DNA of 64,000 nt, taken from an uncultured Rhodoblastus sp. Its GTDB lineage: Bacteria; Pseudomonadota; Alphaproteobacteria; Rhizobiales; Beijerinckiaceae. Location of the stretch: the NCBI RefSeq assembly GCF_903903185.1, contig NZ_CAIUXT010000016.1:1-64000 (forward strand). The letters run 5' to 3'. A model generated the notes under the pieces. That model was given only the letters and a program-made list of their open reading frames with translations. It did not search any database and was not told where the DNA came from. The translations under genes were made by a program, and so were the position numbers. Positions 15,406 to 27,466 of this stretch are shown here, one piece after another; the stretch's first letter is position 1, and every line of letters begins with the position of its first letter.

Positions 15406-15933
15406 TCACCCCGCCATCTCTCGCAACGCCGCCCGGACCCGCGCCACCGCCTCGATCAGCCTATGCGTGTCGCTGTCGCGCAAAATGCCCTTGCCCGCGC
15501 AATATTCGTAATTTTCCGCCGCCGCCGCGACTTCATGGGCGCCGACGGCGCGCGCCGAGCCTTTGAGCTTGTGCGCCAGGTCGGCTCGCGAAAACTTCGC
15601 CGCGTCCGCATCGGCGCGGCCGAGTTGCTCGGCGATCCGCCCCGCCTGATGGTCGAACAGCGCCAGCAATTCGCTTTCCAGCGCGCTGTCGCCCATGGTC
15701 TGGCGCGCCAGATGGACAAGATCGATCGGGCATGCGCCAGCGCCGTCCCCGCTGGCGGTGGAAGCGGAATCGAAACCGGGAATACGCTGGGCGGGGGCCA
15801 AGGTTTTCTCCTGTCGGCGTGGATTTGGAGCGGTTTCACGCCGAAGGGCGGCGACCTGTGGTTGCGAAATTGAAAAATCCGGACGAAACCGCGCTGCCCA
15901 ACTTCGCCCAAAAAAATGGACGAAACCCCTCAT
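15406..15933 (-). CDS. Hpt (histidine phosphotransfer) domain protein
   Basis: DSALESELLALFDHQAG...FSRADLAHKLKGSARAVGAHEVAAAAENYE with HxLKGSA phospho-His motif; start uncertain. Confidence 0.8.
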   Translation of the reverse strand: MRGFVHFFGRSWAARFRPDFSISQPQVAALRRETAPNPRRQEKTLAPAQRIPGFDSASTASGDGAGACPIDLVHLARQTMGDSALESELLALFDHQAGRIAEQLGRADADAAKFSRADLAHKLKGSARAVGAHEVAAAAENYEYCAGKGILRDSDTHRLIEAVARVRAALREMAG

Positions 15934-16065: not shown

Positions 16066-16143
16066 TGCGACTGGCGGTGAACCACCGACGCGACGCGTAA
16101 GGTCGCGTCACGACGTTGGTAAAGTCAAAAGGGCGATTTGGTC

Positions 16144-19100
16144 ATGTCCACACCGAGCAAGGCTCAGGATCCCGCGGCCGCCGCTTTGTCGGCGATCGAG
16201 GACGCGCTTCGGCTGCATGTCGAGCCGGAAGCGGCAAACGCCGAAACGCCCAACGAAACGCCAGCGGAAACCTCCGCCGAGACCGGCGAAGGCCCCAAAC
16301 TCGAATTCCATTTGCCGACGACGCGCCCCGATAATGAGCCGCCAACGCCGCGCCTGCCCGAAATCGCCGCCGACGAACTTTCGGGCGCCGTGCGCCCGCG
16401 CGACCCGGAAGCGCCGCGCTCGCCCCTGACCCCGAACGCCTTCCCGGCCAACGACGACCGCCCCTCGGTTGGCCAGATCCTGCAGAGTCTGCAGGCGCGC
16501 CCCGATTCCACCGCCATGACCGGCGCGATCATCGCCGCCGCCGCCTGGACCGGCCTGTGGATCGGCTATTTCCTGTTCACCCATGGCGCGGCCTTTTCCG
16601 GCTCGCTGTTCAGCCCGGCAGCCGCCATTTCCGCCTTCGCTCTGATCGGTCCGGTGATCTTCTTCCTCGCGATGGGCTCGGTCGCCCGCCGCGCCCAGGA
16701 AATGCGGCTGACCGCCCGCTCGATGGCGGAAGTGGCGATCAGGCTCGCCGAACCCGAGACCATCGCCACCGAACAGGTCGTCACCCTGAGCCAGGCGATC
16801 CGCCGCGAGGTCGCCTCGATGGGCGACGGCATCGAGCGGGCGCTGGCCCGCGCCAGCGAACTCGACACCATGGTTCGCGCCGAAGTCGCCTCGCTGGAGC
16901 GCACCCATGGCGAAAACGAGCGCCGCATCCGGCTGCTGCTCAGCGAATTGGCGAGCGAACGCGAATCCATCGTGCTCAATGCAAACCGGGTTTCTGCGGC
17001 GCTGACCGACGCCCAAAATTCCGTTTCCGGCGAGTTGGACGCCGCGACCCGGCAACTGACCGGGCTGCTCGACGCCACCGGCGAACGCCTCGCGAGCCAG
17101 CTTGAGGAAAAGAGCGGCGCCATCGAGCAGGCCTTCGCCCGGACCGGCGATGCCTTGCTGCAACAGATCGAAAGCCGCGCCGAAGCCTTGCTGGGCCGTT
17201 TCGACGCCACCGGCGGCGAGGCCTCGCGGCGGATCGAGGAGCGCGCCGGCGATGTCGACGGACGCTTGCGCGCCTTCGCCAGTTCATTCCTCGAACAGAT
17301 TGACGGCCAGTCGAACCAATTGGCGCAGAATCTTCGCGACGCGGGCCAGCGCATTGGCCAAACCATCGGACAGCAAGGCGACGAACTGACCGGCCGCATT
17401 GCCGGTCAGACCGAGCGGCTGCATGAAATCGTCGCGGTCCATGGCCCTGCCCTGAGCCAGTCTCTGGCCTCGGTCGGAGAGGATCTCGCCCAGCGCCTGC
17501 GCGGGGAAACGCAAGCGGCGCAGAACCTTCTGGGCGCCTCTGGCGAAGCCTTCTCGCAGACCCTCGATGCGCAGCGCGCGCGCTCGGCCGAGCATTTCGC
17601 GCAGGCGACGCAGGCCGCACTCCGGGACATGAGCGCCCAGGCCGAAGCCCTGCAAAATCATGTCGGCGAAACGGCGCGGCGCGCCGTCGAGGACTTCGGC
17701 GCCCATGCCGAGAGCGTCGGCCAGACCTTCGCCAGCGTCAGCCTGCAAGCGGTCGAAAGCGTCGCTGGCCAGACCGATGCGCTGCGCGAGAACTTCCACC
17801 TGGCGGCGGAAGAAACCCTTGCGGCGCTGGCCGGCCACACCGAGGCCTTCAACGAGGCCTTCGCGCGCACCGCCGCCGAGGCCATCGAAGGCGTCGCCGG
17901 ACAGACCGAGGCGTTGCGGGCGGCTGGCGAAACGCTGCGCGGGGCTGGCGATTCGGTGCGGGAAGCGGGCGACGCCCTGCGCGGAACCATCGAAATTTCG
18001 ACCCATGCCGCTCTCGCCGCGATCGAGGACAAGACCGAGAACCTGCGGCACAGGTTCGACGTCCTTTCGGGCGCGACCGTCGAAACGCTGGAGGCGCAGA
18101 CCGCCCGCATCGAGCAGTCTTTCTCGCGAAACTTCGAACATCTGAAGCAGACCGTCGGCTCGGCGACGCAGGAAACGCTGGCCGCGCTCGTCGGCCATAC
18201 CGGCGCGTTCCAGGAGCAGTTCGCCCAGACGGCGCAACTGACCGTCGACGCCGTCGGCGTCCACGGCGAGCGTCTGGAACATATGGTCGCCGCCGTGACG
18301 CAGGACCAGCTCTCGGCTCTGGTCGGTCATACCGAAGCGTTCCAGCAGAATTTCGCCCGGCTGGCGCACGAAACCGCCGAACTGGCCGCCACCCGGACGC
18401 AGGCTTTGCAGATTTCGCTGGAAGCCGCCGGAAATGCCGTAGGAGACGCGCTCAGCGAGACCGTGGCCAGCACGCAGGCGCGGTTCGAGACCGTCGCCGA
18501 GACGACCGTCGCCGCAATGGAGACCAAAGCGCAGCAGCAGATCGCCGCCCTCGCCGAACAAGGCGAGGCCTTCCAGAGCCAATTCGCCCGCCTGACAGAG
18601 GAAACCGTCGGTCAGGCCCGGACGCGGACCGATGGCATGCGCGAATCGCTCGAAGCGACCAGCCACGCGGTGGGCGAGGCGCTGAGCCAGACCGTGGCCG
18701 CAACCCAGGCGCAATTCGAGACGGCGGCCGAGGCGACGCTGGCGGCCCTTCACGCCAAAGCGCAGGACCAGATCGACGCCCTCGCCGGCCATGGCGATGC
18801 CTTCCATGAGAATTTCGCGCGCCTTACCGAAGAAACGGTGAGCCAGGCGGAAGCTCGCGCGAAGACCCTGCGCCTGTCGCTCGAAGCGGCCAGCCGGACT
18901 GTGGGCGAGACGCTGAGCGAGACCGTCGCCGCCACGCAGGCGCGGTTCGAGACCGCAACCGACGCGTCGCTCGCGGCGCTGCAAAGCAGATCGCAGGAGC
19001 AGATCGACGCCCTCGCCGGCCATGGCGAGGCCTTCCACGAGAATTTCGCCCGGATCGCTCAGGAAACGGCGAACCAGGCGGAAACGCGCGCGAACGCCCT

Positions 19101-22100
19101 GCGGCAGGCGCTCGAAGCCGCCAGCCGGACTGTGGGCGAGACGCTGAGCGAGACCGTCGCCGCCACGCAGGCGCGGTTCGAAGCCGCCGCCGACGCTTCA
19201 CTCGCGGCGCTGCAAGGCAAATCGCAGGAACAGATCGACGCCCTCGCCGGCCATGGCGAGGCCTTCCACGAGAATTTCGCCCGGATCACCGAGGAAACGG
19301 TAAGCCAGGCGGAAGCTCGCGCGAAGACCCTGCGACTGTCGCTCGAAGCGGCCAGCCGGACGGTCGGCGAGACGCTGAGCGAGACCGTCGCCGCCACGCA
19401 GGCGCGGTTCGAGGCCGCAACCGACGCCTCGCTCGCGGCGCTGCAAGGCAAATCGCGGGAACAGATCGATGCCCTTGCCAGCCACGGCGAGGCCTTCCAC
19501 GAGAATTTCGCCCGGATCACCGAGGAAACGGTGGGTCAGGCCGAGGCGCGCGCGGAATCCCTGCGCCTGTCGCTCGAAGCGGCCAGCCGAACAGTCGGCG
19601 CGACGCTGAGCGAAACGGTCGCCGCCACCCAGGCGCGATTCGAGGCGACCGCCGAATCGTCGATTGCCGCCCTGCAAAGCCGTTCCCGGGAGCATATCGC
19701 CGCGCTTGCCGGCGAAGGCGAGGCCTTCCGCCAGGATTTCGTTCGGATCACCGAGGAGACCGTCGGCGGCGCCGAAGCGCGGACGCGGACCCTGCGCCAG
19801 TCGATCGAAGAGATCGGCCGGCTGGTCGGCGAGACCGTCGGCGGCAATATCGCCGCGACGCAGGCGCAGTTCGAGGCGGCTACCCAGTCGGCTCTTAGCG
19901 GCCTGCTAGCGCAGACGGCGACGATCGACCGCAATTTCGCCGCCTCCGCCGACCAGTTTGCCGCCCGAACGGGCGAAGCCGCCGCCCAGGTTGCCCAGCG
20001 CGTCGGAGAGACCCAAAAGCGCTTCGCCCAGGTCGCCTCGGAAGCCGTCGCCGCCGTCGGCATGCATGGCGACCGCGTCAACGAAACCCTCGCCCGGCGT
20101 CTCGACGCCTTCGAGGCGACGCTGACACGCGGCGGCGACGAAACCTCCAACTCCATCGGCCAGCACGCCGAGCGGCTCACCCAGCAGATTTCCGTCAGTC
20201 TCCATGCTTTCGAGACCCAGTTGGCGCTCGGCATCGCCGAGGCGCGGGCCAAGCTGGCGCAGCATGCCGAAAGGTTCAACGCCGATTTCGTCGCCCAACT
20301 CGCGGCGCTCGAACAACTGATGCGCGGCGGCGGCGAAAGCTCCGCCGACCATATTCAGGCGCAGACGGAAGTCCTTCGCGAGACACTGACGCAGAATCTG
20401 CGCGGCTTTGAAGCCGCCATCGCCGAACTCGGCGGCGGCGTCACGGACCGCATCGGCGCGCAGGCCGACGCCCTCGCCGAGACCATCGGCGGACGGCTGG
20501 CGGCGATCGAGGCGACCATCGACGTGCATGGTTCGGCGCTCGACGCGCGCCTCGGCGAACGGGCCCGGACCATCGCCGATCTCCTCGGCGGACAGCTCGA
20601 CCGCTTCGCCGCGCAAACCACCGATAAGTCGCAGGAAATTTTCGAGACCATCGACGGACTTATCGGCAAGGCCCATACCGGCCTGGCCTTGCGCTCGGAC
20701 CAGCTCAACGATGCGCTGGCGGGACGCGCCATCGACATAGCCAAGGTGCTGGGCGAAGGCGGCCGCGAAGTCGGCCGCGCGCTCGACGCCAAGGCGCGCG
20801 AACTCGATGCGATTATCCTAGCGCGCTCCACCGCGCTGACCGAGGAATTGTCGTCCAAGACCCATGAGATCGATTCCACCCTTGGCGGGCGCGCCAGTGA
20901 AATCGCCGCCAGTCTTGGCGGCCATATCGAGCTGTTCGAGCAGAAAGTATTCGGTCGCCTCGGCGAGGTCGGCCGCACGCTCGACCTCAAAGCGAACGAA
21001 CTCGACGCCATCTTCCTCGCCCGCTCCACCGAGCTCAGCGCGGAATTGTCGTCGAAGGCCCGTGAGATCGATTCGACGCTCGGCGGCCGCACCAATGAAA
21101 TCGCCGCCAGTCTCGGCGGCCATATCGACCTGTTCGAGCAGAAGGTATTCGGTCGCCTCGGCGAAGTCGGCAGCACGCTCGACGCCAAAGCGCATGAACT
21201 CGACGCCATCATCCTCGCCCGCTCCACCGAGCTCAGCGCGGAATTGTCGTCGAAAGCCCACGAGATCGATTCCACGCTCGGCGGCCGCGCCAGTGAAATC
21301 GCCGCCAGTCTCGGCGGCCATATCGATCTGTTCGAGCAGAAGGTGGTTGGCCGCCTTGGCGTGGTCGGCGAGGAACTGGATCGCCGCATCGGCCAGATCG
21401 AGGCCACCGTCGATGGACGCGGCCGGGCGCTGACCGACGAATTGCACGCCCGCGCCTCCGAACTCAACGAATGGTTCGATACGCGCGGCCTAAAGCTGAT
21501 CGAATTGTTGGGAACGCGCGGCGGCGAAGTGGTGTCGCAGATCGTCTCCTTCAGCGAAAGCGCCGTCAGCGCCCTATCCAATCGTTCCGGGGAAATGCTC
21601 GAAGAGTTGCGCCGGCGCCAGACCGAGATCGGCGCGACGCTGGAGCGTTCCGACCGCGAAATGCGGGAGAATCTCGATCGCGCTACCCAGACGCTCGAAA
21701 CGGCGATCGCCGGGTCGAGCGCCTCGTTGAGCCAGGCGCTCGATGAGAGCGCCGCCGGCTCGGTGACGCGGCTGACCGACGTCAATCTCCAGCTCCGGCG
21801 GGAGGTCGGCGGCCTGATCGACGGCCTGTCGCAGACCCATGCCTCGCTGATCGAGCTGATGCAGGCCGCCGAAGCCGATTTCGGTCGGCTCGACGGCTCC
21901 TTCGCGCCGAAGATCGAAGCTTTTGCCGGCGCCGTCGAAGCGCTGCGCGGCGAATTGGACCGGCTCGATTCGTCGGGACAGGAAAGTGTGCGCCTCGCCA
22001 GCGAGACGGCGCGCTCCATCGGCGGCCAGAACCGGGTTCTCGAAGCCAGCCTGCGCGAAATGTCGGCGACGCAGAAATCCATTGATCAGACGCTGGAGGA

Positions 22101-23379
22101 GCGTCTCAACACGCTGGCGACGGCCCAGGCGTCAATCGACGAGGCGCTCGAAGCGCGGCTCCAGACGATGCAGCGCCTGTTCGACGAAGCGCAGCAGCGC
22201 CAGAGCGAGTTCGAAAGCCGGCTGGAGAATTTCGGCGGTGCGATCGGACGCACCTTGTCGCAGGCCGAAATCCGGGCGCGCGAGGTCGGCGCCTTCCTCG
22301 CGGAGTCCTCGACGGCCACCGCCGGCGCACTCACTGGCCAATACGAGGAACTGCGTCAGAGCGCCGAGCGCGAAGGCGCGCGGGCGGCGACGGAAATCGC
22401 CGCCGTCTATGAGCAGAATCTCGGCGAGATGAACCGGACGTTCCAGCAGGCGGCCGACCGCTACAAGGCGGTCTCGGGCGAACTGCGCGCCATGACCGGC
22501 GAAATCCAGCGCGAACTGGAAGCCACGCGGCAGGAATTGCGGCGCGGCGCGCTGGAACTGCCGCGCGAGGCCGGCGAACAGACCGCCGCCATGCGCCGCG
22601 TTGTCGCCGACCAGATCAAGGCGCTTAGCGAATTGACCGATCTGGTCGCCCGTTCGGAACGCGCACATGACATCTCCGAACCGGCGACCCAGCCCAAACC
22701 CGCGATCCCGGTCCGGCCCGAACCTGCAATCCCGGCGAGGGATTCGGCCGCGATCCCCGCGCGGGACACCGCCACCATCCCCGCGCAGGATTTTGGCGCG
22801 ATCCACGAAAGACTGCCGGAGCAACGGCTCGCGCCGCGTCGCGAACCGCCGCGTCAGGCCGCGCGTGAAGACAAGCGTCAAGAAACGCGTCAGGAGACCT
22901 TTGGCGAATCGCGCTTCGACCTGCGCCCGACCGCGCCGCGAGCGCCGGCGCCGTCGTCAAGCGAACGCGGCGGCGGCTGGATGAGCGACCTGCTCGCCCG
23001 CGCCTCGCTCGACGAGCAACCGGCGCGGCGCGGCTCCTCCGGCGACCCGCTGGAGAATCTGTCTGCCGACATCGCCCGGGTATTCGATGAAAACGCCCTC
23101 GTCGACGCCTGGGACGGCTATCGTCGCGGCGAAGGCGCCGCCTTCGACCGCCGGCTCTATACCTCCCAGGGCTTGAAGAGTTTCGACGATGTCCGCCGCC
23201 GCTATGGCGCCGACGCCGATTTCCGCCAGACCGTCGATCGCTATTTGCAGGAATTCGAACGGCTGCTGATGGAGATCGACCGCGAGGATCGCGATGGCTC
23301 CCTGACCCGCGCCTATCTCCTCTCGGAGACCGGCAAGGTCTACACCCTGCTCGCCCATGCCTCTGGACGACTTGGTTGA
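16144..23379 (+). CDS. Giant membrane-anchored helical-repeat protein, GPR (growth pole ring)/apolipoprotein-like
   Basis: ~2411 aa from ATG 16144 (TTG at 16138 also possible); Pro/Glu-rich N-term, two TM segments (AIIAAAAWTGLWIGYFLFT; AAISAFALIGPVIFFLAMG), ~2000 aa Ala/Glu/Gln helical repeats, disordered linker, small C-terminal domain (ALVDAWDGYRRGEGAAFDRRLYTSQGLKSFDDVRRRY...). Confidence 0.85.
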   Translation: MSTPSKAQDPAAAALSAIEDALRLHVEPEAANAETPNETPAETSAETGEGPKLEFHLPTTRPDNEPPTPRLPEIAADELSGAVRPRDPEAPRSPLTPNAFPANDDRPSVGQILQSLQARPDSTAMTGAIIAAAAWTGLWIGYFLFTHGAAFSGSLFSPAAAISAFALIGPVIFFLAMGSVARRAQEMRLTARSMAEVAIRLAEPETIATEQVVTLSQAIRREVASMGDGIERALARASELDTMVRAEVASLERTHGENERRIRLLLSELASERESIVLNANRVSAALTDAQNSVSGELDAATRQLTGLLDATGERLASQLEEKSGAIEQAFARTGDALLQQIESRAEALLGRFDATGGEASRRIEERAGDVDGRLRAFASSFLEQIDGQSNQLAQNLRDAGQRIGQTIGQQGDELTGRIAGQTERLHEIVAVHGPALSQSLASVGEDLAQRLRGETQAAQNLLGASGEAFSQTLDAQRARSAEHFAQATQAALRDMSAQAEALQNHVGETARRAVEDFGAHAESVGQTFASVSLQAVESVAGQTDALRENFHLAAEETLAALAGHTEAFNEAFARTAAEAIEGVAGQTEALRAAGETLRGAGDSVREAGDALRGTIEISTHAALAAIEDKTENLRHRFDVLSGATVETLEAQTARIEQSFSRNFEHLKQTVGSATQETLAALVGHTGAFQEQFAQTAQLTVDAVGVHGERLEHMVAAVTQDQLSALVGHTEAFQQNFARLAHETAELAATRTQALQISLEAAGNAVGDALSETVASTQARFETVAETTVAAMETKAQQQIAALAEQGEAFQSQFARLTEETVGQARTRTDGMRESLEATSHAVGEALSQTVAATQAQFETAAEATLAALHAKAQDQIDALAGHGDAFHENFARLTEETVSQAEARAKTLRLSLEAASRTVGETLSETVAATQARFETATDASLAALQSRSQEQIDALAGHGEAFHENFARIAQETANQAETRANALRQALEAASRTVGETLSETVAATQARFEAAADASLAALQGKSQEQIDALAGHGEAFHENFARITEETVSQAEARAKTLRLSLEAASRTVGETLSETVAATQARFEAATDASLAALQGKSREQIDALASHGEAFHENFARITEETVGQAEARAESLRLSLEAASRTVGATLSETVAATQARFEATAESSIAALQSRSREHIAALAGEGEAFRQDFVRITEETVGGAEARTRTLRQSIEEIGRLVGETVGGNIAATQAQFEAATQSALSGLLAQTATIDRNFAASADQFAARTGEAAAQVAQRVGETQKRFAQVASEAVAAVGMHGDRVNETLARRLDAFEATLTRGGDETSNSIGQHAERLTQQISVSLHAFETQLALGIAEARAKLAQHAERFNADFVAQLAALEQLMRGGGESSADHIQAQTEVLRETLTQNLRGFEAAIAELGGGVTDRIGAQADALAETIGGRLAAIEATIDVHGSALDARLGERARTIADLLGGQLDRFAAQTTDKSQEIFETIDGLIGKAHTGLALRSDQLNDALAGRAIDIAKVLGEGGREVGRALDAKARELDAIILARSTALTEELSSKTHEIDSTLGGRASEIAASLGGHIELFEQKVFGRLGEVGRTLDLKANELDAIFLARSTELSAELSSKAREIDSTLGGRTNEIAASLGGHIDLFEQKVFGRLGEVGSTLDAKAHELDAIILARSTELSAELSSKAHEIDSTLGGRASEIAASLGGHIDLFEQKVVGRLGVVGEELDRRIGQIEATVDGRGRALTDELHARASELNEWFDTRGLKLIELLGTRGGEVVSQIVSFSESAVSALSNRSGEMLEELRRRQTEIGATLERSDREMRENLDRATQTLETAIAGSSASLSQALDESAAGSVTRLTDVNLQLRREVGGLIDGLSQTHASLIELMQAAEADFGRLDGSFAPKIEAFAGAVEALRGELDRLDSSGQESVRLASETARSIGGQNRVLEASLREMSATQKSIDQTLEERLNTLATAQASIDEALEARLQTMQRLFDEAQQRQSEFESRLENFGGAIGRTLSQAEIRAREVGAFLAESSTATAGALTGQYEELRQSAEREGARAATEIAAVYEQNLGEMNRTFQQAADRYKAVSGELRAMTGEIQRELEATRQELRRGALELPREAGEQTAAMRRVVADQIKALSELTDLVARSERAHDISEPATQPKPAIPVRPEPAIPARDSAAIPARDTATIPAQDFGAIHERLPEQRLAPRREPPRQAAREDKRQETRQETFGESRFDLRPTAPRAPAPSSSERGGGWMSDLLARASLDEQPARRGSSGDPLENLSADIARVFDENALVDAWDGYRRGEGAAFDRRLYTSQGLKSFDDVRRRYGADADFRQTVDRYLQEFERLLMEIDREDRDGSLTRAYLLSETGKVYTLLAHASGRLG
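18319..19935 (+). repeat. Seven tandem 231-bp (77 aa) in-frame repeats inside the giant gene
   Basis: Matching codon landmarks end at 18318, 18549, 18780, 19011, 19242, 19473, 19704 (231 bp steps); units at 18780-19473 nearly identical. Confidence 0.9.
20803..21396 (+). repeat. Three tandem 198-bp (66 aa) in-frame repeats inside the giant gene
   Basis: LDAIILARSTxLxxELSSKxxEIDSTLGGRxxEIAASLGGHIxLFEQKVFGRLGEVG; landmarks at 20803, 21001, 21199. Confidence 0.9.
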
Positions 23380-23599: not shown

Positions 23600-23644
23600 G
23601 GGCTGATATCATCGGTCCTTTTCAAGGGCCGATGATATCAGCCC
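23600..23644. other. Long inverted repeat (21-bp arms, 3-nt loop) overlapping the end of the minus-strand lipoprotein gene
   Basis: GGGCTGATATCATCGGTCCTT-TTC-AAGGGCCGATGATATCAGCCC, one non-Watson-Crick pair. Confidence 0.88.
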
Positions 23645-24243
23645 GTCCTTGCGGCCCAGGCGACGAGTTGCGGCAGAATCCGGCGGAAGGCGAGGTCGAG
23701 CGCCTCCAGGGCCTCCGGGGCTTTGATCTCGCCGACCGGTTCGCTGGCGGAAAACATTTTCGCCGAAACGACCTGCCCGCTCGCTGTGACAATCTGGGCG
23801 GCGATTTCGACCCGCGCGACGCGGCGCGTCGCATCAATGTCAAAATGGCGGATCGCGAGCGCCAGCGAAGCAGCGGACGGCTCCCCGGGGCCGCGAAGTC
23901 GCGACAGCATTCCGGCGTTTTGAAATGTCTCGATGGTTCGGCTCTGCACGAGATAGGTCAGCCGGTCCGCCCAGCGCACGCCGGGAAGGTAGGCGAAGCG
24001 ATCCTCGCTTTCGCGCACCACCACCAGATCATTGTCGAGCGGCGGCGCGACCGTCGGCACATCGACGGAAATATTTCCGCGCGCCATGCGGGCGGCAACC
24101 GCGGCCGGACTTAGATTGTAAACCTGCGGCGCGCTCGCGCAGCCGGCCAGCAGCAGCGCGAACAGCAGCGCCGCCGGACCCGGAACGAGCCCGGACAAAA
24201 GCCGGGCAGCCTCGCGCCGAAAGGAGATTCCAATTCGCTTCAC
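23638..24243 (-). CDS. ABC-type transport auxiliary lipoprotein (PqiC/MlaB-type partner)
   Basis: Lipobox LLAGCASAPQVYNLSP; VPTVAPPLDNDLVVVRESEDRFAYLPGVRWADRL; follows MlaD gene. Confidence 0.85.
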   Translation of the reverse strand: MKRIGISFRREAARLLSGLVPGPAALLFALLLAGCASAPQVYNLSPAAVAARMARGNISVDVPTVAPPLDNDLVVVRESEDRFAYLPGVRWADRLTYLVQSRTIETFQNAGMLSRLRGPGEPSAASLALAIRHFDIDATRRVARVEIAAQIVTASGQVVSAKMFSASEPVGEIKAPEALEALDLAFRRILPQLVAWAARTG

Positions 24244-24328
24244 GCCGTCCCCAGTTCGATTTCAACCAACTCTGGCCAAACCATGGCCAAAGCGAAAGCA
24301 TAGCAAGCCTCTCCTCGCCGAAAAGCTT

Positions 24329-25225
24329 TTATCGGCCCTTGTATTCGGGCAAAGCCGGCTTCGGTCCGAAAAGAATGCTTTGCGGGTCGCGCTCCAGTTG
24401 CCGCACCGCATGACCGACGTCCTGCAAGGTGCGGCGTCCATCGACCGCCAGCCCCTCATATTGGCGCAGGCCCGTATTGGCGAAGCGCGACAGATTTTCC
24501 GCGAGCTTCTTGATCGAACGCGCGGCCTCGGCAATATCGGCCACCATGGTCTTGCCCTCGCCCTTGCCGAGCAGGGTGTTGATCCGGGTCATGGCCTGAT
24601 CCGCGTTATCGACAATGGCGTTGACCTTGGCCGGATCGACGCTGTCGATCAACTCGCGCAAATTGCCGGAACTGTCGGCCAGCGCCCCGGTCAGCGTCTG
24701 GATATTGGCGACGGAAGCTTTCAGCGCCGGCGCGTTTTCGTCCACCATCTTGCTGACGTTGCCGATAAATACGTCCGCCTTGGTGCTCAGGTCCTGCGCC
24801 GTCTTCATCAATATTTGCAGCTGCGACGGTTGCGCGTCGATCACGGCGTTGGCGGGCAAGGCCTCGGCGGCGGCGCTGCCGCCCTGCAAGGCGATGGAGG
24901 CGTAGCCGGTCAGGCCGCCGGTCTCCAGCTGGGCTTTGGTGTCGGTCTTCACCGGCGTCTGCGCATCGACCTTGATGGTCGCGAAGACCCGGCTCGGATC
25001 GTTGGGCATCAGGCCGAGTTCGGTCACTTCGCCGACCTTGAGGCCATTGAACAGCACCGAATTGCCATTGGAAAGGCCCGAGACCGAGCCCGCGAAATGT
25101 ACCTGATAGGTTGTCAGCGTCACCTTGCCGCCCGTGCCCTTGAACCAGAACACGAACAGAAAGGCGCCGACGATCACCGCCAGCGTGAACAGGCCGATCA
25201 GCGCATAATTTGCGCGCGTTTCCAT
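24329..25225 (-). CDS. MlaD/MCE domain lipid-transport protein
   Basis: METRANYALIGLFTLAVIVGAFLFVFWF; VHFAGSVSGLSNGNSVLFNGLKVGEVTELGL MCE domain. Confidence 0.93.
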   Translation of the reverse strand: METRANYALIGLFTLAVIVGAFLFVFWFKGTGGKVTLTTYQVHFAGSVSGLSNGNSVLFNGLKVGEVTELGLMPNDPSRVFATIKVDAQTPVKTDTKAQLETGGLTGYASIALQGGSAAAEALPANAVIDAQPSQLQILMKTAQDLSTKADVFIGNVSKMVDENAPALKASVANIQTLTGALADSSGNLRELIDSVDPAKVNAIVDNADQAMTRINTLLGKGEGKTMVADIAEAARSIKKLAENLSRFANTGLRQYEGLAVDGRRTLQDVGHAVRQLERDPQSILFGPKPALPEYKGR

Positions 25226-25259
25226 TGGCAGTCTCCCTGTCCTTTCAGCGTTTCGCCGC

Positions 25260-26183
25260 TCACGCGCGCGCTCCGTGCCGGGAACCCGCCGGGGCGGCCG
25301 TCAGCAAACCCGCGTCGGACGCCGGAACATCCGGAATTTTCGGCGCCGCGCCTTGCGGGACGATGGTCCGCGCCCGCTTGCCATGGAAATAGGATCGCAG
25401 CCAGGGATGATCCGACGCCAGCATGGTCGAAAGCGGACCGGACGCGATCACCTTGCCGTCGGCCAGAGCCGCGATGGTGTCGCATATCGAATAGAGACTG
25501 TCGAGATCATGCGTGACCATGAACACGGTCAAGCCGAGCGTCTTCTGCAGGGTCGAGATCAACTCGTCGAACTCCGCCGCGCCGATCGGGTCGAGGCCCG
25601 ACGTCGGCTCGTCGAGGAACAGCAGTTCGGGGTCGAGCGACAGGGCGCGGGCGAGCGCCGCCCGCTTGATCATGCCGCCCGAAAGCTCGGAGGGAAACTT
25701 GTCGGCGGCATCCGGCGCCAGCCCGACCAGCTTGATCTTGAGCATCGCCAGTTCGTCCATCGTCTCTTGCGACAGCGACAAATATTCGCGCATCGGCGCC
25801 TGGATGTTCTGCTTGACGGTCAGCGCGGAGAACAGCGCCCCGCTCTGGAACAATACGCCCCAGCGCCGCTCCAGCGCGCGATGTTCTTCGGGCGAAAGCT
25901 TGTCGATGTCTTCGCCGAAAACCTCGATCTCGCCGGATGTTTTCGGCAAAAGTCCGAGGATCGTCCGCGTGAGAACCGATTTGCCTTGACCGGAGCCGCC
26001 GACGAAGCCCATTACCTCGCCGGCCTTGACGTCGAGATCGAGCCCTTCGAGCACCATTTTCGGCCCGAAGCCGACATAAAGGTCGCGGACGCGGATGATC
26101 GGCGGCTTGTCAATTTCCGGCTTGTCGTTTTGCTGGCTTTCGCGTTCTCGGCTCTCGTTTTCCTGGCTGTCGTTTTCTTGCAT
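25260..26183 (-). CDS. MlaF-type ABC transporter ATP-binding protein
   Basis: FVGGSGQGKSVLTRTILGLL; LSGGMIKRAALARALSLDPELLFLDEPTSGLDPIGA; start MQENDSQEN. Confidence 0.93.
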   Translation of the reverse strand: MQENDSQENESRERESQQNDKPEIDKPPIIRVRDLYVGFGPKMVLEGLDLDVKAGEVMGFVGGSGQGKSVLTRTILGLLPKTSGEIEVFGEDIDKLSPEEHRALERRWGVLFQSGALFSALTVKQNIQAPMREYLSLSQETMDELAMLKIKLVGLAPDAADKFPSELSGGMIKRAALARALSLDPELLFLDEPTSGLDPIGAAEFDELISTLQKTLGLTVFMVTHDLDSLYSICDTIAALADGKVIASGPLSTMLASDHPWLRSYFHGKRARTIVPQGAAPKIPDVPASDAGLLTAAPAGSRHGARA

Positions 26184-26190
26184 CGGCCCC

Positions 26191-27336
26191 TCAGTAATGG
26201 ATGCTGGCGAAGAAAATGGCGAACAGGCCATCGACGAAAATCACCATGAAGATGCCATTGACCACCGAGTCGGTCACCCGCCGGCCAAGGGACTCGGCCG
26301 ATCCTTCGACCTTGAACCCTTCGATCGACGCAATGATGGCGATGACCAGAGCCATGAACGGCGCCTTGATCAGGCCGACCAGAAACGTGTTCAGGCCGAT
26401 GGCGTCCTGAAGGCGGTTGGCGAAGGCCACCGGGCTGATGCCCTCATAAATCCAGGCGGTGAGCAGGCCCCCGGACAGCGCCGCCATATCCCCGAGGAAG
26501 GTAAGCAAGGGCAAGGCGATGATCAGTGCGTAAAGCCGCGGCAGGATCAAGACGTCGATCGGCGACATGCCCATCACCCGCAGGGCGTCGATCTCCTCGC
26601 GCATTTTCATCGAGCCGATTTCGGCGGTGATCGCCGAACCCGAGCGGCCGGCGATCATGATCGAGGTCAACAGCACGCCGAGTTCGCGCAGAACCAGCAC
26701 CCCGATCAGATCGACGGCGTAAATCGGGGCGCCGAAACGCTTCAACTGAAAAATGCCCTGCTGTTCGACGATGCAGCCGACCAGGAAATTGATCGTCACG
26801 ATGATCGGCACCGCCCGCAGGGAAAAGGTTTCGAGGTGATAGACCAGCGAAGTCGGCCGCGCGAGCTTCGGATTGAACAAGGTCCGCGACGATTCGATCA
26901 CCAGTTCGCCGAGAAAGGCCACGCCCGCGACAATCTGGCGCACGATGTCGAGAGTCCATGCGCCAAACCCGGCGAGCAAGCTGACCAGCGGATTGAGCTT
27001 GGGAAGCTTGACGACCACCGGGGGGGCATAGGCCGCCTCGTGCAGCAGCGTGTTCTGGTCTTGCGAGACGGCGGCATATTCCGCCGCGACGCCCGCCGCC
27101 GCGATGCTGGTCCGGGCCTTGTCGATCAGCCATGCGCCCGCCGTGTCGAGCCGCGTCACGCCGGCGAAATCGATCGAAACCTTCGCCGCGCCATGGGCGG
27201 CCTCGGCCAGCGCTTTGGCGCTTTGCTCGAGGACGCGCGAAGCGGCGATGGTCCAGGCGCCGCTCAAGGCGATGCGGGTGTTCTCCCCGTCCTTTTCAAC
27301 CGAAAAGCGCGGGGCGGCGGTGTCGAATTTGGACAT
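26191..27336 (-). CDS. MlaE-type ABC permease with N-terminal STAS-like domain
   Basis: STAS-like region (VSIDFAGVTRLDTAGAWLIDKA) fused to MlaE permease (LRELGVLLTSIMIAGRSGSAITAEIGSMKMREEIDALRVMG). Confidence 0.92.
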   Translation of the reverse strand: MSKFDTAAPRFSVEKDGENTRIALSGAWTIAASRVLEQSAKALAEAAHGAAKVSIDFAGVTRLDTAGAWLIDKARTSIAAAGVAAEYAAVSQDQNTLLHEAAYAPPVVVKLPKLNPLVSLLAGFGAWTLDIVRQIVAGVAFLGELVIESSRTLFNPKLARPTSLVYHLETFSLRAVPIIVTINFLVGCIVEQQGIFQLKRFGAPIYAVDLIGVLVLRELGVLLTSIMIAGRSGSAITAEIGSMKMREEIDALRVMGMSPIDVLILPRLYALIIALPLLTFLGDMAALSGGLLTAWIYEGISPVAFANRLQDAIGLNTFLVGLIKAPFMALVIAIIASIEGFKVEGSAESLGRRVTDSVVNGIFMVIFVDGLFAIFFASIHY

Positions 27337-27466
27337 TTCGCGCGATTCTGCTTTGCTGACCCGAAGGATTGAATAAGCTCGCCAATCGTTCTTGAATAAC
27401 CTCGCCAAGCCATTTAAGCAAAAGCCAAATTGCCGACAAGCTACGACTCGCGCCCTTCAGCAGGCC

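Follow-up and report, generated by a model that had tools for sequence, protein, structure and literature searches.

A predicted GPR/RgsE growth-pole protein of an uncultured Rhodoblastus with a rod of 11-residue helical period and a rod length that changes mostly in multiples of 11 within genera

Polar growth of Agrobacterium requires the GROWTH POLE RING protein (GPR), and the mechanism of this protein has so far been framed by homology to apolipoproteins and by lipid sorting. In Agrobacterium, the protein assembles into a ring of 200 nm at the pole, its depletion gives round cells, peptidoglycan synthesis is dispersed in its absence and matches to the apolipoprotein family PF01442 are reported across it (PMC8262873). 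Here, we ask what is encoded by a giant gene of an uncultured Rhodoblastus, how its repetitive body is built and whether that body is related to apolipoproteins at all. The window, i.e. the whole stretch of DNA analysed, comprises 64,000 nucleotides of contig NZ_CAIUXT010000016.1, and the gene occupies 16144..23379 on the forward strand, encoding 2411 aa from an ATG or 2413 aa from a TTG at 16138.

A preliminary description of the locus had proposed two N-terminal transmembrane segments, a long helical body, a linker and a small C-terminal domain, and this layout is indeed present, with a body of about 1,900 residues and a proline-rich linker, all on the forward strand. Kyte-Doolittle 19-residue windows place the transmembrane segments at aa ~129-148 and 152-184 (16522..16689), and the pair also occurs in nearly all homologues. 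C-terminal of the second segment, an alignment of 30 homologues defines a conserved N-block (16690..17067) containing RLAEPETIATEQVVTLSQAIRREVASMGDGIERALARASELD. The hendecad body (aa ~270-1875; 16945..21762), in near-constant register from aa ~600, passes into a rod end of mixed hendecad and heptad periodicity (aa ~1876-2150; 21763..22587), where two anchors lie 70 residues apart, a spacing fixed in 28 of the 30 aligned proteins. The linker (aa ~2151-2289; 22588..23004) then leads to a C-terminal helical domain (23005..23376) with the last residues GKVYTLLAHASGRLG, and no periodicity was detected in either. A comparison of the C-terminal domain with the PDB found no relative, the best sequence match (E 0.0056) and the best fold match (E 0.7) both being taken as chance. 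Within the rod there are 4 prolines in 1955 residues, and lysine makes up 1.4% of residues.

The preliminary description had inferred homology to GPR from this layout, and sequence matches at both ends of the protein now show it directly. Against a 2089-aa protein of Sinorhizobium meliloti, identity amounts to 43% in the N-block (212 aa, 1e-46) and to 49% in the C-block (125 aa, 1e-36). We equate this protein, by species and exact length, with RgsE, the GPR homologue of 2089 aa, which contacts TolQ, RgsA and RgsS in S. meliloti (PMC7327166). Besides the two membrane segments, homologues share the N-block and a C-terminal block of fixed spacing. Used as a query, the C-terminal 142 aa found a match in every one of the 41 genomes in the relatives set, and a profile of the C-terminal domain matched in 244 of 249 genomes of Rhizobiales; a search of NCBIfam with the gpr product gave no match. 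Judged by these matches, the gene is a GPR/RgsE orthologue and an ordinary member of a known family. The evidence as a whole is best explained, with a probability of roughly 0.8, if the gene encodes this bacterium's GPR/RgsE growth-pole scaffold. The S. meliloti homologue itself (locus L050, 6127-12396) is annotated as 'kinesin' on a 3.7-Mb record labelled pSymB.

The body had been described as built from multiples of 11 residues on the strength of its DNA repeats, and all three unit lengths were confirmed. Tandem Repeats Finder reports a 231-bp array of 6.2 copies (77 aa = 7 x 11; 18449..19875) and a 198-bp array of 3.1 copies (66 aa = 6 x 11; 20765..21369), and a 132-bp step (44 aa = 4 x 11; 18135..18380) leads from 18135 to 18267, in register with the step from 18186 to 18318 noted earlier. 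As an argument for a period of 11, unit lengths of 66 and 44 aa discriminate but 77 aa does not, being a multiple of both 7 and 11, so the 231-bp unit does not tell hendecad from heptad. The hendecad is nevertheless borne out by autocorrelation and spectrum. Hydrophobic autocorrelation over aa 196-2180 reaches 0.40, 0.41, 0.36, 0.34 and 0.35 at lags 11, 22, 33, 44 and 66, against 0.18 and 0.05 at lags 7 and 14, and the spectral power of hydrophobic residues in the body is 70-92 at period 3.66-3.67 versus 1.0 at 3.5. The 11-residue signal is not a product of the DNA repeats, since it is equally present outside the arrays (lag-11 autocorrelation 0.34 in aa 196-770, 0.41 in 1247-1542 and 0.40 in 1745-2150) and far above shuffled sequence: with 2000 shuffles for each of these three non-array segments, no value went beyond 0.19.

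The hydrophobic phase is near constant over ~1,270 residues (aa ~600-1875). It shifts once, near aa 590, and drifts to a lesser extent near aa 1260, and a heptad component is found chiefly at aa ~1875-2150. In aa 1247-1744, positions 1, 4 and 8 of 11 are hydrophobic (3-4-4 spacing). Along the body, hydrophobic residues form a stripe of ~60 degrees, the hydrophobic fraction being 0.71-0.81 in two central 30-degree bins and at most 0.25 beyond, while Arg/Lys and Asp/Glu lie mostly on different flanks of the helix. An AlphaFold single-sequence model of aa 1247-1878 consists of long helices at low confidence (pLDDT 61). A period of 11/3 is likewise found in nearly all sampled homologues of Rhizobiales.

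Such a period raises the question of what a match to an apolipoprotein profile means. PF01442 matches the body in 12 stretches (250.6 bits, 1.2e-74; Pfam cut-off 90), and the best PDB match of the real protein is human ApoA-IV (1.5e-10). In register shuffles, residues were permuted only inside the 11 hendecad columns. For aa 1247-1866, the real sequence scores 138.5 bits against PF01442 (cut-off 90) and three register shuffles 132.5-133.3, and one heptad-column shuffle and one full shuffle gave no PF01442 match. For aa 271-578, the corresponding values are 63.0 bits for the real sequence and 55.1-65.0 for four register shuffles, and two heptad shuffles gave no PF01442 match. In the PDB, too, register shuffles hit human ApoA-IV (1.1e-6 and 2.1e-5). 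In these two segments, then, the register shuffles revealed no similarity to PF01442 beyond 11-residue column composition. As their scores come close to those of the real sequence, the homology to apolipoproteins published for GPR does not testify to common descent. The 'apolipoprotein' signal largely reflects column composition at period 11, with which lipid binding is still compatible, and the 11-residue rhythm explains how such proteins come to be mistaken for relatives of human apolipoproteins. The earlier wording of 'apolipoprotein-like' helices thus stands for the periodicity and falls for kinship, as the PF01442 match needs no common ancestry. Hallmarks of apolipoproteins A1/A4/E are proline-punctuated 22-mers and a broad class A hydrophobic face. 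Both proline punctuation and such a face are absent from the rod, with its 4 prolines and ~60-degree stripe; the narrow stripe, split charges and few prolines would fit helix packing better than a lipid-binding face.

The same period governs how the protein changes in length. Total length ranged from 910 to 2977 aa among the homologues first fetched, and in one same-genus pair that is 89% identical (L026/L027) the sole gap is 88 residues. Among same-genus homologue pairs of >55% identity, 73 of 110 gaps of at least 4 residues are divisible by 11. A second set, independent of the first, covers named genomes of Bosea, Microvirga and Hoeflea as well as two smaller groups. Over its 87 pairs of at least 75% identity, 216 of 252 indels in the body are exact multiples of 11 versus 5 of 114 outside it. 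Branches are shared among pairs, and the counts therefore do not represent independent events, but the contrast between inside and outside is drawn within the same pairs. The commonest steps are 22, 11, 44 and 33 aa. Within genera, rod length thus changes mostly by whole multiples of 11 residues, and the register is thereby kept while length is free. Strict invariance of body length modulo 11 was rejected: between the fixed anchors it takes a few values (2, 5, 6) within the genus and not a constant one, and steps of 4 and 7 residues are occasionally seen. For the same published GPR deletions, sizes of 20, 21 and 22 residues are all stated (PMC8262873), and given this inconsistency we draw no conclusion on register from the deletion phenotypes.

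Further, the C-terminal domain reaches well beyond the order. Together with two transmembrane segments and a shorter helical body, it is present in 109 of 289 genomes drawn across Alphaproteobacteria, many of the open reading frames being 600-1100 aa long. Outside Rhizobiales, the body lacks hendecad coherence (n=37; median phase coherence -0.50, median lag-22 autocorrelation 0.08). Several of the class-wide proteins (L083-L122) have a period of ~3.6, and several are near TipN in size. MreB and Rgs proteins have been reported as mutually exclusive (PMC7327166). MreB was present in 48 of 50 genomes tested, nearly all from outside Rhizobiales, and gave no match in this genome or in 39 of the 41 genomes of the relatives set, while control genomes matched. 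As the assembly is 91% complete, the lack of MreB here rests also on the relatives. The exclusion is not universal, in that 28 of 249 Rhizobiales genomes have MreB and at least 10 of these also have the C-domain protein. Median body length in Rhizobiales is 495 aa with MreB (n=10; including L045, L047 and L203-L210) versus 1252 aa without (n=34; Mann-Whitney 7e-5), in a test that ignores phylogeny and with an MreB-positive sample consisting only of loci with listed coordinates; phase coherence is 0.37 with and 0.75 without MreB. At the level of the order, a class-wide protein has been elaborated into one with a coherent hendecad body, which is longest where MreB is missing. The methanotroph marker PF02461 had no match in this genome, and the control genomes gave none either.

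The neighbourhood of gpr offers additional clues. Divergently oriented upstream lies a gene for a single-domain Hpt (histidine phosphotransfer) protein with an HKLKG motif (15406..15933, reverse strand; PF01627, 8.4e-7). At 30 of 32 loci sampled, among them those of S. meliloti and of a Sphingomonas record, a divergent Hpt gene precedes gpr, and the phospho-accepting histidine is retained in 27 of these 30. Among named loci with enough upstream sequence the neighbour is present in 49 of 71, being absent largely from Microvirga and Xanthobacteraceae-type genera, and of 40 loci fetched from outside Rhizobiales, 14 have it as well. A literature search found no paper on the pairing, and we hypothesise that Hpt and gpr may be functionally linked. 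Convergent with gpr are genes for an ABC_trans_aux lipoprotein, mlaD, mlaF and mlaE (23638-27408, reverse strand); roughly half of the Rhizobiales loci sampled have mlaE/mlaF close to gpr, S. meliloti not being one of them.

Several other explanations can be weighed against this evidence. According to the published reading of GPR, the body would descend from, or work as, the lipid-binding domains of apolipoproteins A1/A4/E and sort lipids at the growth pole. The extensive PF01442 match and the top PDB hit to ApoA-IV speak for it, as do the mlaE/mlaF lipid-transport pair near gpr at about half of the loci and the impairment of GPR by deletion of PF01442-type regions (PMC8262873). We nevertheless regard it as improbable, as register shuffles come near the real score and keep their ApoA-IV matches at 1e-6 and 2e-5, heptad and full shuffles score nothing, and the stripe is narrow, with lysine and proline scarce. 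Far less credible still is a canonical heptad coiled coil, be it of the SMC type or of the 'kinesin' type that some records name. Apart from the 'kinesin' annotation in CP090106, only the heptad component near aa 1875-2150 speaks for it, while power at 3.5 is a small fraction of that at 3.67; Pfam and NCBIfam returned no kinesin or SMC family match for the gpr product, and periodicity rules out a heptad core for the main body.

Two further alternatives concern the origin and the role of the giant body. The 11-residue steps might be purely a mutational by-product, in which repeats of 33n bp slip, multiples of 11 stay in frame and register is unselected. The long DNA repeats in gpr and the most frequent steps of 22, 11, 44 and 33 aa are what slippage would yield, and part of the quantisation can come from it; as the entire explanation it seems rather unlikely, the hydrophobic register being equally strong where no tandem DNA repeat is reported and strong also in homologues only 25-30% identical. 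Alternatively, the protein could in this species be a polarity landmark of the TipN type, marking the new pole and not building a growth ring. TipN (882 aa) has been called analogous to GPR (PMC13170164), and the C-domain with two membrane segments and a shorter body is spread through the class, as described above; with a giant body as in growth-ring proteins and MreB missing, we give this option little credence. The 80 loci kept from the genome scan belong to Rhizobiales and to unnamed or neighbouring Alphaproteobacteria, with no named Caulobacter locus among them.

By analogy with Agrobacterium and Sinorhizobium, such a growth-pole scaffold would have its anchor in the inner membrane at the growing end of the cell and would keep the machinery of cell-wall synthesis in place there. 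Its rod may be a near-straight hendecad helix of about 285 nm (1,900 residues x 0.15 nm), packing through its narrow hydrophobic stripe with helices of neighbouring GPR chains or of partners, and not an apolipoprotein that binds lipid; at the distal end of the rod, the C-terminal domain would serve to recruit partners. In PMC8262873, a length of 600 nm is stated for 1,700 helical residues; at a rise of 0.15 nm per residue, an alpha-helix of that many residues would span ~255 nm. A bolder and more doubtful proposal is that of a modular molecular ruler. In this view, a short pole protein found across the class would have been elaborated in Rhizobiales into a register-locked rod with the loss of MreB; ring or pole geometry would be tuned from species to species by how many 11-residue units the rod contains, the protein would be controlled by its own divergent Hpt partner, and the apolipoprotein ancestry would be an artefact of the 11-residue period. 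The family itself was known; new are its build and mode of evolution, and an apolipoprotein label without basis in homology. The shuffle test takes sequence similarity away as a prop for the lipid-sorting frame, and quantised indels offer another frame, in which helix register is kept and length is variable. Additionally, the unstudied Hpt gene beside gpr is brought to attention.

Placed among known systems, the rod shares with human apolipoprotein A-IV and PF01442 an 11-residue helical periodicity and a score above the Pfam cut-off, and differs in its absent proline punctuation, its narrow stripe and a score that shuffles reproduce. With Caulobacter TipN (882 aa) a link would run through proteins of like size and layout across Alphaproteobacteria that share the gpr C-domain, TipN itself being likened by description. 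Agrobacterium tumefaciens GPR (Atu1348, 2115 aa) is of like layout and size class with PF01442 over most of its body, by description (PMC8262873), and the sequence link to it runs via the S. meliloti protein. S. meliloti RgsE (SMc00190; CP090106 LZK74_25975, 2089 aa) is ~320 residues shorter than the Rhodoblastus protein and is followed by transposase and cytochrome bc1 genes, whereas the mla cluster lies downstream here. It has the same two transmembrane segments, N-block, hendecad body (lag-11 autocorrelation 0.51, period 3.67), Pro-rich linker and C-domain, and a divergent Hpt gene lies upstream of it, as in Rhodoblastus.
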